Positions 56-3,960 of a DNA stretch of 64,000 nt are shown in pieces; position 1 is the stretch's first letter; every line of letters starts with the position of its first letter. Position numbers and translations under genes: made by a program. The stretch is from NCBI RefSeq assembly GCF_013201725.1, contig NZ_CP053835.1, positions 1,984,001 through 2,048,000 of the forward strand. Direction: 5' to 3'. The notes beneath the pieces were generated by a model. The model did not search any database and was not told the DNA's origin. It worked only from the letters and a program-made list of their open reading frames with translations. The stretch is from Arcobacter defluvii. GTDB lineage: Bacteria; Campylobacterota; Campylobacteria; Campylobacterales; Arcobacteraceae.

Positions 56-2545
56 ATGATAAAAAAAATTTATGATACTTTTATTTTAAAGTATCCCTTA
101 ATTATTTTAACTCTTTTGATGTTATTTGTTTCAGTTTTGGGTTATTATGCTACAAAGCTTGAAATAGATGCATCTGCTGAAACTTTACTTTTAGAAGATG
201 ATAAAGATTTACAATTTTTTAGAGAAGTAAATAAAACTTATAATAATTCAGATTTTTTAGTAGTTACTTTTTCTCCTAAAAATGATGAACTATTATCTCA
301 AAAAAGTTTAGAAACTATAAAAAATATGTCTAATGATTTTTTAAAAGTAAAAAATGTTGAAAGTATTACTTCTATTTTAAATGTACCTTTACTTCAATCT
401 CCAATAAGACCTATTTCTGATTTAGTTGAAGGAGTTGATTCACTTGAAACAAAAAAGTTTGATAATAAACTTGTAAAAAATGAATTACTTCATTCACCAT
501 TGTACTCAAATGCTTTAGTAAGTAGTGATTTTAAAACAACAGCTATTATTTTAAATTTAAAAACAGATACAAAATATTTTGAACTTTTAGAAAAAAGAAA
601 TGCTTTATTAAAAAAAGAGAAAGATAAAACTATTTCAAATGAAGAAAAAATAGAATTAAAAGATACTATTTTAGAATTTAAAAAATATAGGGATTTTTTG
701 AGAATCCAAGAAGCACAAGAAATTGAAAATATAAGAGATATTATCAAAAAATATCAAAGTGAAGCTAAAATATTTCTTGGTGGAGTAAATATGATAGCTA
801 GCGATATTGTTGGCTATGTAAAAAATGATTTAATTATCTACGGTTCTGGGTTATTAGCAATTTTAATATTTGTTCTTTGGTATATTTTTAGACATATTAG
901 ATGGATTATTTTACCTTTATTTATTTGTTTAATTTCAGTTATTTCAACAGCAGGTATTTTAGGACTATTTGGTTGGGAAGTGACAGTTATATCTTCAAAT
1001 TTTATTGCTTTACAATTAATCATAACAATTTCAATTGTTCTACACTTAATTGTAAGATATAGAGAATTAAATGTAAAATATAAAAATGCAAGTCAGTATA
1101 AACTGATAATAAATACAATTTTATCAAAATTCAACCCATCTTTTTTTGCAATTATTACAACCATAGTTGGTTTTGGTTCTCTTGTATTTTCAAATATAGA
1201 ACCTGTAATTAATCTTGGTTTGATGATGAGTACAGGAATTGCTATTTCGTTATTTTTAGCATTTATTACTTTTCCTGCTTTATTAATTTTAATGAAGAAA
1301 AAAGATGAACATGAACAAAAAAATAAAAAATTCTCATTTATAGCAAAATCATCAAATATTGTTGAACATCAAGGTAAAACAATAATAATTGTAACTATTT
1401 TAATAATTATTTTTTCAGTAACAGGAGCATTAAAACTTTTAGTTGAAAATAGTTTTATTAGCTATTTTAAACAATCAACTGATATTTATAAAGGAATGAA
1501 AGTTATTGATGAAAATTTAGGTGGAACTACTCCACTTGATATTATCATCAAATTTAAAGATGAACCGAAACCTCAAATAAAGAAAAATCCAACTGATGAT
1601 TTTGATGATTTTGAAAATGAATATGCTAAAAGTGCAGATGATAAACAATATTGGTTTAGTCAAGATAAAATGGATACAATCACAGCTGTTCATAACTATT
1701 TAGAAACTATTCCTGAAATTGGAAAAGTTCAATCTTTAGCAACTCTATTAAAAATTGGAGAATCTTTAAATGATGGAAAACCTCTTGATGGTATAACATT
1801 AGCTGTATTATATAATCAATTACCAGAAAGATATAAAAATCTAATTCTTTCACCTTTTATTAATATTGATAAAAATGAAGCTAGAATCACTATGAGAATT
1901 ATGGACTCAAATCCTGATTTAAGAAGAAATGATTTAATAAATAAAATAAATCATGATTTAAAAGATGTTATTAAAAATAAAGAGACAACATTTAGACTTT
2001 CAAATCTAATGGTTTTATATAATAATATGCTTCAATCGTTATTTGAATCTCAAATAGCAACTTTAGGATTTACAATTATTGTCTTATTCATAATGTTCTT
2101 AATTTTATTTAAAACTTTTAAACTTGCAACTATTGCTATACTTGCAAATATTATACCTATTTCAACTATTTTTGGAATTATGGGTTGGTTAAATATTCCT
2201 TTAGATATTATGACTATTACAATTGCAGCAATTGCTATAGGAATTGGTGTTGATGATACTATTCACTTTATTCATAGGTTTAAAGAAGAATTTAAAGTTG
2301 ACCATAACTATATAAATGCAATGAGAAGATCTCATCAAAGTATTGGATATGCTATGTATTATACATCTTTAGTAATAATCCTTGGTTTTTCAATTTTAGT
2401 TTTATCAAATCTAATTCCAACAATTTATTTTGGATTATTAACAGTAGTTACAATGTTCACCGTACTACTTGCTGATTTATTACTACTTCCAAAGCTATTA
2501 CTAATATTTAAACCTTTTGAAAAATTAAAGGAAAAGAAACAATGA
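56..2545 (+). CDS. RND/MMPL-family exporter (HpnN-like)
   Basis: An 829-residue inner-membrane protein with the duplicated RND layout. One membrane helix lies near residues 13-33, then a large periplasmic domain, then five to six helices (about 258-415), then the same pattern repeated (helices near 445-465 and 675-820). The second helical block carries GIGVDDTIHFIHRF, the paired acidic residues of the MmpL/HpnN proton relay. Proteins of this size and fold export lipids or hydrophobic compounds using proton-motive force. It follows a partial gene by 1 bp and overlaps the LOG gene by 4 bp (ATGA), so all three form one operon. The substrate cannot be read from the sequence. An Mla-type lipid pathway is a context guess. 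Confidence 0.85.
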   Translation: MIKKIYDTFILKYPLIILTLLMLFVSVLGYYATKLEIDASAETLLLEDDKDLQFFREVNKTYNNSDFLVVTFSPKNDELLSQKSLETIKNMSNDFLKVKNVESITSILNVPLLQSPIRPISDLVEGVDSLETKKFDNKLVKNELLHSPLYSNALVSSDFKTTAIILNLKTDTKYFELLEKRNALLKKEKDKTISNEEKIELKDTILEFKKYRDFLRIQEAQEIENIRDIIKKYQSEAKIFLGGVNMIASDIVGYVKNDLIIYGSGLLAILIFVLWYIFRHIRWIILPLFICLISVISTAGILGLFGWEVTVISSNFIALQLIITISIVLHLIVRYRELNVKYKNASQYKLIINTILSKFNPSFFAIITTIVGFGSLVFSNIEPVINLGLMMSTGIAISLFLAFITFPALLILMKKKDEHEQKNKKFSFIAKSSNIVEHQGKTIIIVTILIIIFSVTGALKLLVENSFISYFKQSTDIYKGMKVIDENLGGTTPLDIIIKFKDEPKPQIKKNPTDDFDDFENEYAKSADDKQYWFSQDKMDTITAVHNYLETIPEIGKVQSLATLLKIGESLNDGKPLDGITLAVLYNQLPERYKNLILSPFINIDKNEARITMRIMDSNPDLRRNDLINKINHDLKDVIKNKETTFRLSNLMVLYNNMLQSLFESQIATLGFTIIVLFIMFLILFKTFKLATIAILANIIPISTIFGIMGWLNIPLDIMTITIAAIAIGIGVDDTIHFIHRFKEEFKVDHNYINAMRRSHQSIGYAMYYTSLVIILGFSILVLSNLIPTIYFGLLTVVTMFTVLLADLLLLPKLLLIFKPFEKLKEKKQ

Positions 2546-3105
2546 ATATTGCTATTTACTGTGGTTCTTCATTTGGAAATAATAAAATTTATGAAGAACA
2601 AACAAAAGTTTTAGCTCAAAAACTTGCACTAAAAAATTTAAATATTGTTTATGGTGGCTCATTACAAGGACTTATGGGAATAGTTTCAAATGAATCAATT
2701 AGATATAAAAACGTTGTAATAGGTGTTATAACTTATGATTTAGTTGATAAAGAAATTGAAAATAAAAATATCACAAAAATTTACAAAGTAAACACAATAA
2801 ATCAAAGAAAAGAAAAAATGGAAGAATTAAGTGATGCTTTTATAACTCTCCCTGGAGGTTATGGGACTTTTGAAGAGATATTTGAAGTATTGTCTTCTAC
2901 TCAAATTGGCTATCATAAAAAACCTTGCGCATTTTATAATATAAATGGATATTATGATAAGTTAATCGATTTTTTAAATAATTGTGTAAAAGAAGGTTTT
3001 ATAAAAAAAGATTATGTTGATATGTTAATTGTTTCAGATGATATAGATGAAATAATTGAAAGAATTATAAATTACAAAGCACCAAAAAATAAATGGCAAA
3101 ATTAA
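2542..3105 (+). CDS. LOG family protein (TIGR00730 type)
   Basis: 187 residues, the usual size for LOG proteins. It shows the family signature PGGYGTFEE near residues 103-111 and the upstream arginine-containing segment NQRKEKMEELSDAF. These form the nucleotide phosphoribohydrolase active site that releases bases such as cytokinins from their ribotides. The N-terminus IAIYCGSSFG is the Rossmann-like first strand. The physiological substrate in Campylobacterota is unknown. Its start overlaps the stop of the RND exporter, so it is translationally coupled to it. No signal peptide, so cytosolic. Confidence 0.88.
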   Translation: MNIAIYCGSSFGNNKIYEEQTKVLAQKLALKNLNIVYGGSLQGLMGIVSNESIRYKNVVIGVITYDLVDKEIENKNITKIYKVNTINQRKEKMEELSDAFITLPGGYGTFEEIFEVLSSTQIGYHKKPCAFYNINGYYDKLIDFLNNCVKEGFIKKDYVDMLIVSDDIDEIIERIINYKAPKNKWQN

Positions 3106-3132
3106 GAGTTCTTTTATCTTATTCACATTTTG

Positions 3133-3158
3133 TTAACCTTTGATTTAAAAAAGGTTAA
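3133..3158. repeat. Inverted repeat upstream of candidate sRNA promoter
   Basis: TTAACCTT (3133-3140) and AAGGTTAA (3151-3158) form a perfect 8-bp inverted repeat with a 10-base spacer. It is not followed by a T-run. It lies just upstream of the TATAAT at 3170-3175, where an operator would sit. It might also be a weak end hairpin for the LOG operon. Confidence 0.4.
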
Positions 3159-3169
3159 TACATAGCTAT

Positions 3170-3175
3170 TATAAT
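3170..3175 (+). promoter_or_regulatory. -10 box TATAAT of candidate sRNA
   Basis: A perfect TATAAT in a gap with no open reading frame. It predicts a transcript start near 3182 and a short RNA ending at the strong terminator at 3257-3290. Confidence 0.5.
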
Positions 3176-3181
3176 TACTTC

Positions 3182-3290
3182 ATAAGTTGATAGACAAACC
3201 TTAATTTGCGATGTTAAGATTTTTTTTAACTTTACTCCTCCTAATATATACAAGTTAAAGGAAGCTTTTTATAAGCTTCCTTTTTTTTTT
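3182..3290 (+). ncRNA. Candidate small regulatory RNA of about 110 nt
   Basis: A perfect -10 box and a textbook rho-independent terminator enclose about 110 nt with no plausible coding sequence. The body has a small hairpin (CTTAA at about 3200 with TTAAG at about 3214) and a single-stranded pyrimidine stretch ACTCCTCC (3234-3241), which is complementary to Shine-Dalgarno sequences. C/U-rich loops of this kind are used by known Campylobacterota riboregulators such as RepG of Helicobacter. It resembles neither tmRNA, 6S nor SRP RNA. The upstream LOG operon could also simply read through to this terminator. Confidence 0.4.
3257..3290 (+). terminator. Rho-independent terminator
   Basis: An 11-bp stem AAAGGAAGCTT/AAGCTTCCTTT (3257-3267 with 3273-3283), a 5-base loop and a run of ten T on the plus strand. 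One of the strongest terminators in the window. It sits between the LOG operon or candidate sRNA and the HAD gene. Confidence 0.85.
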
Positions 3291-3324
3291 AACTAAATTT
3301 TTAAAATAGGAATAATCTTAATAA

Positions 3325-3960
3325 ATGAAAAAATATATACTTTTTGATAATGATGGTGTTTTAGTTCATACAGAACCTTTGTATTTTAAAGCAAATATTC
3401 AAGCTTTAAATGAGTTTTTTAATATTGAATTAGAATTTGAAGAATATATGAAAATTATGAGTGAAGGAACAACGGTTTGGCAAAAAGCTTTAAACAATGG
3501 CTTTTCATTTGCTGAAGTTGAAATTGCAAGAAATAAAAGAAATGAATATTATCAAACTTTTTTAAGAACAGAAAATATATTAATTGATGGTGTAAAAGAT
3601 GTTTTAAAAGAGTTATCTAAAGATTATAAAATGGGAATAGTAACTACTTCAAGAAGAGTTGATTTTGAAATTATTCACAAAAATCTAGGAATAGTTGATT
3701 TTATGGATTTTGTTCTTTGTGAAGAGGATTATAATTTTGCAAAACCACATCCAGAACCATATTTAAAAGGTCTTGAACTCTTTAATGCAAATAAAGAAGA
3801 GGCTATTGTAGTTGAAGATTCAACTAGAGGTTTAAGCTCAGCTTACAAAGCAGGAATAGAATGTGTGATTGTAAAAAATGAATTTACACTTACACAAGAT
3901 TTTTCAAAAGCAAATTATTTTATAGAGACTTTAAAAGAATTGAAAACTATTTTAAATTAG
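3325..3960 (+). CDS. HAD-superfamily phosphatase (beta-phosphoglucomutase/phosphoglycolate type)
   Basis: 211 residues with the four HAD motifs in order. Motif I is DNDGVLVHTEP near residues 8-18, with nucleophile and acid/base aspartates. Motif II is the threonine/serine of VTTSRR, motif III the lysine of FAKPHPEPY and motif IV VVEDSTRG. The helical cap between motifs I and II is the C1 type of the phosphoglycolate phosphatase and beta-phosphoglucomutase families. It is a cytosolic phosphomonoesterase or phosphomutase whose substrate cannot be told from sequence. It is transcribed alone, after a strong terminator, and meets the minus-strand TlpA-like gene end to end with a 4-bp overlap. Confidence 0.87.
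   Translation: MKKYILFDNDGVLVHTEPLYFKANIQALNEFFNIELEFEEYMKIMSEGTTVWQKALNNGFSFAEVEIARNKRNEYYQTFLRTENILIDGVKDVLKELSKDYKMGIVTTSRRVDFEIIHKNLGIVDFMDFVLCEEDYNFAKPHPEPYLKGLELFNANKEEAIVVEDSTRGLSSAYKAGIECVIVKNEFTLTQDFSKANYFIETLKELKTILN

Follow-up and report, generated by a model that had tools for sequence, protein, structure and literature searches.

A conserved candidate small RNA of Arcobacter defluvii that shares its promoter array with degP and is predicted to pair with the ccoN leader

A short intergenic locus of Arcobacter defluvii most likely yields a small regulatory RNA (sRNA) that looks real and conserved. On balance, we consider it probable that this RNA acts in trans, is activated under envelope stress by the response regulator of the degP operon, and represses the cbb3 oxidase gene ccoN by pairing in two blocks. 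In the proposed mechanism, an OmpR-family response regulator from a degP-response regulator-histidine kinase operon of the CprRS/ArsRS type would bind an array of four hexamers ahead of the -10 element and activate transcription of the sRNA on envelope stress, and the same array would control degP and a second sRNA. The transcript would have a 5' hairpin and a terminator with an open stretch between them, and this stretch would pair with the ccoN 5' leader through 9 bp over the Shine-Dalgarno (SD) sequence and 12 pairs located 7 nt further upstream. The duplex, covering approximately -32 to -5 of ccoN, would block ribosome binding, and less of the cbb3 oxidase, a large inner-membrane complex, would be made during envelope stress.

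The locus lies in the window, i.e., the whole analyzed stretch of 64,000 nucleotides (NZ_CP053835.1, positions 1,984,001 to 2,048,000), between a LOG-type gene and a HAD gene (Table 1; all coordinates are window positions). A preliminary description of positions 3133-3290 had proposed a candidate small RNA with an anti-SD stretch, and all elements that it named are present in the sequence, including the perfect TATAAT and the very strong terminator. Two features go beyond it, namely a promoter array common to degP and a two-part pairing site.

Table 1 Features of the candidate small RNA locus and its neighbours (window positions)
Feature	Position	Strand	Remark
LOG-type Rossmann protein, upstream neighbour	2542-3105	+	PF03641, TIGR00730; outside the sRNA
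Four-hexamer array, 11-bp period: ATTCAC 3121-3126, GTTAAC 3132-3137, ATTTAA 3143-3148, GTTAAT 3154-3159	3121-3159	+	Inferred response-regulator binding site
Inverted repeat TTAACCTTT-N8-AAAGGTTAA, overlapping the array	3133-3158	.	Arms 3133-3141 and 3150-3158
-10 element TATAAT, 10 nt past the last hexamer	3170-3175	+	From the letters and the spacing in homologues
Predicted sRNA, ~105 nt	3182-3290	+	Start inferred ~7 nt after the -10 element
5' hairpin with TTGCGATG (3206-3213)	3184-3232	+	TTGCGATG invariant in 14/14 long-form homologues
Alternative stem TTTAACTT/AAGTTAAA: CTCCTCC in loop, part of block 2 hidden	3225-3259	+	Stem search
Pairing block 1 CTCCTCCTA, complement of ccoN-leader TAGGAGGAG	3235-3243	+	Duplex prediction and homologues
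Pairing block 2 TATATACAAGTT, pairs with ccoN-leader GACTTGTATATA (last pair G-U)	3245-3256	+	Duplex prediction and homologues
Intrinsic terminator AAAGGAAGCTT-TTTAT-AAGCTTCCTTT and T-run	3257-3290	+	Stem 3257-3283, 11 pairs
HAD hydrolase, downstream neighbour	3325-3960	+	PF13419; in relatives not always downstream

Folding of positions 3180-3290 is better than that of all 200 dinucleotide shuffles (z -3.3). The CTCCTCC at 3235-3241, previously described as exposed, is placed by the predicted structure between the 5' hairpin and the terminator, where its CTCCT core is unpaired with a mean probability of 0.99 in the window copy and of at least 0.87 in all 28 homologues folded; in one of these, L016 from another genus, the core lies within a large loop closed by AACTTG/CAAGTT. 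Consensus folding with RNAalifold on MAFFT alignments was poor overall and recovered the terminator only, of which one of nine pairs is altered on both sides in short forms of the RNA. The absence of coding potential was borne out, as the 15-codon frame from the ATG at 3211 is not kept over 14 long-form homologues, and a small protein starting there was rejected. A promoter of fixed geometry and an intrinsic terminator of its own, together with the conserved open CUCCU and changing flanking genes, thus argue for a stand-alone, trans-acting sRNA that would be made from this locus. GCGA or GCGAA loops recur in the 5' hairpins of array-driven RNAs (window positions 3206-3213; L329-L331, L160, L161, and L224) and possibly are protein-binding loops.

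The conservation in relatives that the preliminary description had put forward as a check is observed. Matches to positions 3128-3293 were obtained by DNA search in 31 of 60 genomes, the own genome included, and in 29 of these the sRNA is at the matched place, while the matches in G032 and G040 sit elsewhere. The G040 matches were set aside, as were an unrelated place in G032 (L027) and a promoter-like match in G009 (L029), whose true copy is L204. The alignment comprised 14 long forms (~105 nt) and 13 short forms (~72-80 nt) within the genus, plus L016. G009, six further g6 genomes, G108, and G032 came from a composed consensus run against 104 family genomes and from a later search with the promoter box, which brings the homologues to 28 of the 31 genomes of the genus (counting the own one), seven genomes of g6, G108, and G032. 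DNA and box searches found no sRNA in the same-genus genomes G005, G013, and G028, the last of which has the ccoN leader. Look-alikes after the LOG gene in L160, L161, L162, and L182 (Malaciobacter halophilus), with weak or no model score and recognized by eye, and box-driven RNAs in G100, G068, G033, and G034 were left out of this count; no sRNA is visible after LOG in L154, L158, and L159. Among 12 Campylobacterota-like records tested, five gave a strong model match (Aliarcobacter MAGs, Arcobacter caeni, and one further MAG). No Rfam 15 family reached its gathering score in the whole window and seven related loci.

The 37 homologues compared were all gathered with a box-plus-TATAAT pattern, and the 10-nt spacing between array and TATAAT seen in all 37 is therefore built into the sample. 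CTCCT is present in 37/37, CTCCTCC in 24/37, and ATACAA of the second block follows closely in 24/37; block 2 is accordingly retained in 24 homologues, which span four genera. Both blocks persist in g6 and g3 (in six of the seven g6 genomes) although hairpin and terminator differ there, and in G032 the open stretch is likewise retained with hairpin and terminator replaced.

Gene order bears on whether the RNA could arise by read-through from the LOG operon or serve the HAD gene behind it as 5' leader or attenuator, a reading that we regard as hardly tenable. Of the 28 sRNA loci of the first search, 26 are flanked by LOG on the upstream and HAD on the downstream side, as such a reading would have it, but it is contradicted by two rearranged loci and by the strong terminator ahead of HAD. 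In L016 the RNA directly follows an MMPL gene, HAD is on the opposite strand, LOG was not found, and promoter, blocks, and terminator are kept; in L028 HAD was not found downstream and other genes take its place. A HAD leader or riboswitch would have to precede its target gene directly at every locus, and was rejected on these two. Since L016 retains promoter and RNA without LOG, read-through, which the preliminary description had named as a possible sole source, is also an unlikely origin of the transcript.

The inverted repeat of the preliminary description has arms that are 100% complementary, but it is only part of a longer direct-repeat array that begins at 3121, upstream of the region described. 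With up to three mismatches, the inverted-repeat motif occurs once in the window, exactly, and 36 of 100 shuffles contain at least one match. The 3.02-Mb genome has one exact match to a similar repeat pattern and no excess of weaker ones (27 in total versus 40 in the control). We rejected a lone palindromic operator, given that there is neither a second exact copy nor an excess of weaker copies in the genome, and likewise a terminator of the LOG operon, as no T-run follows the repeat and its distance from the -10 element is fixed (identical in the first 28 homologues). Distant homologues keep four RTTWAY-like hexamers at an exact 11-bp period, the 10 nt between array end and TATAAT, and the -10 element, and do not keep the palindrome; we therefore replaced the palindrome by a direct-repeat reading. 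This period and the distance to the -10 element presumably resemble PhoB/CpxR-type sites, which is why we propose an OmpR-family activator.

The array pattern with up to three mismatches has eight sites in the own genome versus one in the control. Across 60 genomes, allowing the box pattern one mismatch at most and relaxing its third hexamer gave 94 sites in 43 genomes, and a reversed-pattern control gave none in any of the 60. The 94 sites divide into 29 at the sRNA (by construction of the pattern), 26 upstream of degP, and 39 others. All but one of the 26 degP/htrA boxes are at 30-45 nt from where the degP match begins (the exception at 229 nt), and array plus -10 element thus stand ahead of degP/htrA at this distance in 25 of the 60 relatives. 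A degP match was obtained in 52 genomes, and the 30 of their degP upstream regions that were printed all show the array by eye, with a -10 element that is not always good. A candidate operator common to degP and the sRNA, as in a CprRS/ArsRS-type regulon, is hence found; a box at a peb4-like gene has three mismatches and is near noise. Further boxes precede MoxR-type ATPase genes in G057 and G058 (L321, L327) and a small secreted protein, maybe Spy/CpxP-like, in G040 (L324), all named by reading. Upstream regions of ccoN (L060-L089) carry GTTAAT-N5-GTTAAT-like repeats in same-genus genomes and, ahead of the ccoN -10 element, TTTAAG; possibly ccoN is also controlled directly, by this regulator or a different one.

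In the own genome, the genes after degP encode an OmpR-family response regulator (PF00072, PF00486) and a sensor kinase, as assigned by Pfam, and the kinase scores above the NCBIfam cut-off for the ArsS family (409.8 bits versus 250); regulator and kinase of the domains expected for a CprRS/ArsRS-type system are thus encoded with degP. The same order behind the box was read from open reading frames in four other Arcobacter-family genomes (L245, L246, L248, and L249), such that regulator and kinase follow degP in all five Arcobacter-family degP loci read. It recurs in G057 and G054 of other families, with the G054 kinase split over two open reading frames, and no response regulator adjoins degP of G046 in the stretch read. 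From synteny and footprinting, the CprRS/ArsRS-type system of the degP operon is the likely regulator of the array. We think it decidedly improbable that sRNA and target are as proposed but some other OmpR-family protein, or an unrelated factor, recognizes the array. Only synteny and the common sites link the response regulator to the array, and the own genome has, by reading, at least one further OmpR-like regulator, beside the peb4-like gene; however, boxed degP-response regulator-kinase operons in several genera and two further families speak for the degP-encoded regulator, which we propose to act as an activator.

Binding to ribosome binding sites, as originally suggested, can be sharpened to one strong candidate target, ccoN. 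The own genome has 10 sites in which AGGAGGAG is followed by ATG, and the ribosome binding site of ccoN, encoding cbb3 oxidase subunit I, was picked by reading all ten. CTCCTCC is half of a pairing site, with TATATACAAGTT adjoining as the second half, and each half finds its complement in the ccoN leader GACTTGTATATAAAATTAGTAGGAGGAG (9 + 12 pairs, 7-nt loop). The predicted duplex of -25.9 kcal/mol ranks first among 404 sampled gene starts (mean -8.4, sd 2.8, next -18.2), which are those scored of 411 predicted starts in the window and 20 stretches of 20 kb, one of them chosen to include ccoN. When both strands of this DNA were scanned in 77,180 windows, the ccoN leader was the best match after the complement of the sRNA itself, and cofolding with the full-length sRNA gains -19.3 kcal/mol. 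Other UAGGAGG sites of the whole genome reach at most -20.0; one of -19.3 (L131) opens an ATG frame of four codons only. The 5' hairpin gave nothing outstanding against the sampled gene starts (best -12.5).

Complementarity to this distant mRNA start is above background in relatives as well, and weak in short forms. Among 28 genomes compared, the 17 with block 2 have ccoN pairing energies of -20.4 to -31.4 kcal/mol (z -3.6 to -6.7), and the 11 short forms without block 2 have -14.9 to -19.0 kcal/mol (z -1.9 to -3.8). For G032, which only the box search recovered, the value is -27.5 (z -5.4). No ccoN-leader pairing was found for the second sRNA of G000 (z +0.5), for two further sRNAs of G010 (sRNA3; z -1.0 and -0.9), or for the G033 sRNA with its own ccoN leader (z -0.3), and the box-driven RNAs of G034 pair moderately (-21.3 and -18.2; z -3.8 and -2.6). 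G021 and G029 have second ccoN copies with different leaders (L090, L091), and the G021 copy has AAGAGGAGAAAATTG before the ATG.

An open anti-SD stretch could also serve a general repressor of several mRNAs with strong SD sequences, e.g., those for haem or iron proteins, of which ccoN would be one of many. We regard this as unlikely, though deserving of attention. The iron/haem-sparing, IsrR-like version keeps some plausibility because the second of the 404 sampled starts belongs to a DUF1924 cytochrome c (-18.2). UAGGAGG starts of genes that read as cytochrome-c-peroxidase-like (-15.4), ferredoxin-like (-14.3), and hemerythrin-like (-13.6), the start of a gene of unknown function with a long frame (L142, -19.4), and the retention of the anti-SD block alone in short-form RNAs agree with it. 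Conversely, the extended block 2 fits ccoN alone by a wide margin, and the promoter box is common to degP.

In the short-form clade, block 2 is lost and its complement in the ccoN leader, ACTTGTATATA, is still invariant, which implies that another constraint also conserves this leader. Crossing the two groups gave -26.4 for long sRNA with long-form leader, -23.5 for long with short, -19.5 for short with long, and -17.6 for short with short, and compensatory co-evolution of sRNA and leader was not found; the leader hardly varies, and the comparison consequently has little power on its side. Both observations would also fit a complementarity that is coincidental or of opposite sense, with block 2 kept for a stem that presents CTCCTCC in its loop, with the leader titrating the sRNA, or with pairing that activates. 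Such an internal stem of nine pairs is possible in G000, G017, G018, and G020, where it is matched by 5-18 of 300 shuffles and one pair varies between A-U, G-U, and G-C; it is closed by AAGT, part of block 2, and can hide block 2 in the window copy. The stem is possibly a rival reason for part of block 2 in these nearest relatives, but it is shorter and no better than shuffles in g6 and G032, and the longest stem does not clearly outdo shuffles in the other block-2 genomes, including the long forms G008, G029, and G004. It hence does not explain block 2 there and, holding in four near relatives and not clearly in the rest, was rejected as the sole reason. Given that block 2 spans four genera, these three stem-poor long forms among them, and that the duplex covers the SD sequence, we find a coincidental or opposite effect improbable. 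Repression of ccoN through both blocks, which we favour, further presumes a ccoN transcript whose leader spans both of them.

The array apparently drives more than one RNA. A second box-driven candidate sRNA (sRNA2; L237:1501-1690, G000:C1:682696 onward) is flanked by msrPQ-like genes and a uvrD-type helicase gene and consists of a hairpin with GACGCAGCGAC, a conserved ATGTTTCCTTGT, and a terminator. It has homologues in L286-L288, L291, L295, L297, L301, L316, and L328, and its best sampled starts include those of a periplasmic-looking and a TonB-receptor-like protein. A third type (L329, L330, and L331; L224 and L229), with two copies in G010, has two GCGA-loop hairpins and a CU-rich stretch, which is TTCTCCTT in L330 and L331. 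Tandem units resembling box plus small RNA were seen in another family of the order (L322, G057:C216:11180-11450). Unconnected to the box, the minus strand of L124 has a near-identical segment at six places, every ~960 bases over ~13.7-18.7 kb, likely a long repetitive gene.

Box-driven sRNAs number at least two in G000, three in G035, and four in G010 among the genomes looked at, and no Hfq was found in the own genome. It is tempting to propose, although tentatively and with less than even confidence, that Campylobacterota possess a complete, Hfq-free envelope-stress response with a non-coding arm, a counterpart of sigma-E and Cpx, in which a degP-linked ArsRS/CprRS-type system would use this array to drive between one and four C/U-rich sRNAs in each genome, one silencing the cbb3 oxidase and sRNA2 an outer-membrane or periplasmic set. 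The envelope-stress response of Campylobacterota has so far been poorly defined. If true, the proposal would tie the terminal oxidase of microaerobic bacteria to periplasmic stress by a concrete RNA-mediated route, in a genome in which no Hfq was found. The two-block pairing is testable by compensatory mutation, and four hexamers, 10 nt, and a -10 element form a simple DNA signature whose zero control matches over 60 genomes make the regulon searchable.

None of the RNAs in the literature on Arcobacter sRNAs (top-ranked matches) and on sRNAs with ccoN or cbb3, searched with most subscription journals outside its scope, was matchable to this RNA. The accessible parts of two studies describe unnamed Arcobacter-only motifs among structured RNAs of Arcobacter sp. 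L (PMC6429828) and a Rhodobacterales motif between cco operons (PMC8632094). By its features, the RNA resembles the C-rich anti-SD sRNAs of Firmicutes (IsrR, RoxS/RsaE, FsrA, and LhrC), which, as far as their accessible descriptions go, place a single-stranded C-rich stretch on SD regions in AT-rich genomes; IsrR lowers nitrate-respiration enzymes, according to the accessible part of its description (PMC9410917). The candidate differs from the IsrR/FsrA group in that it combines one C-rich site with a gene-specific second block, carries a degP-type promoter box, Fur control being the mark of that group, and has no Rfam match. Within the same phylum, RepG of Helicobacter pylori and CJnc190 of Campylobacter jejuni, likened here by description, are sRNAs with C/U-rich pairing. 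Their targets are others, in the accessible accounts the G-repeat of tlpB for RepG and ptmG for CJnc190.

On the regulatory side, CprRS of C. jejuni and ArsRS of H. pylori are alike in that response regulator and kinase are encoded with degP/htrA, judged by gene order, and the A. defluvii kinase belongs to the ArsS family by family assignment. In C. jejuni htrA adjoins cprRS, and we take htrA-cprR-cprS to be the counterpart of the operon. The accessible text on CprRS (cj1227c-cj1226c) describes it as OmpR-like and linked to the cell envelope (PMC9449129). The accessible parts of PMC7887314, PMC4148357, and PMC13189099 yielded no CprR binding motif, and the main text of the CemR paper, as far as accessible, makes no mention of 'sRNA' (PMC11334517). 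No sRNA arm of CprR in Campylobacter was found in the literature searched, again with most subscription journals outside. The Cpx system of Escherichia coli, which controls degP, offers a parallel as an envelope-stress two-component system that lowers respiratory complexes. For the E. coli Cpx response these are NDH-1 and cytochrome bo3 in the accessible part of the source (PMC8831704). In contrast to Cpx, the response regulator of A. defluvii reaches 122.6 bits where the CpxR cut-off is 341, and repression of the oxidase is here proposed to proceed by RNA pairing.
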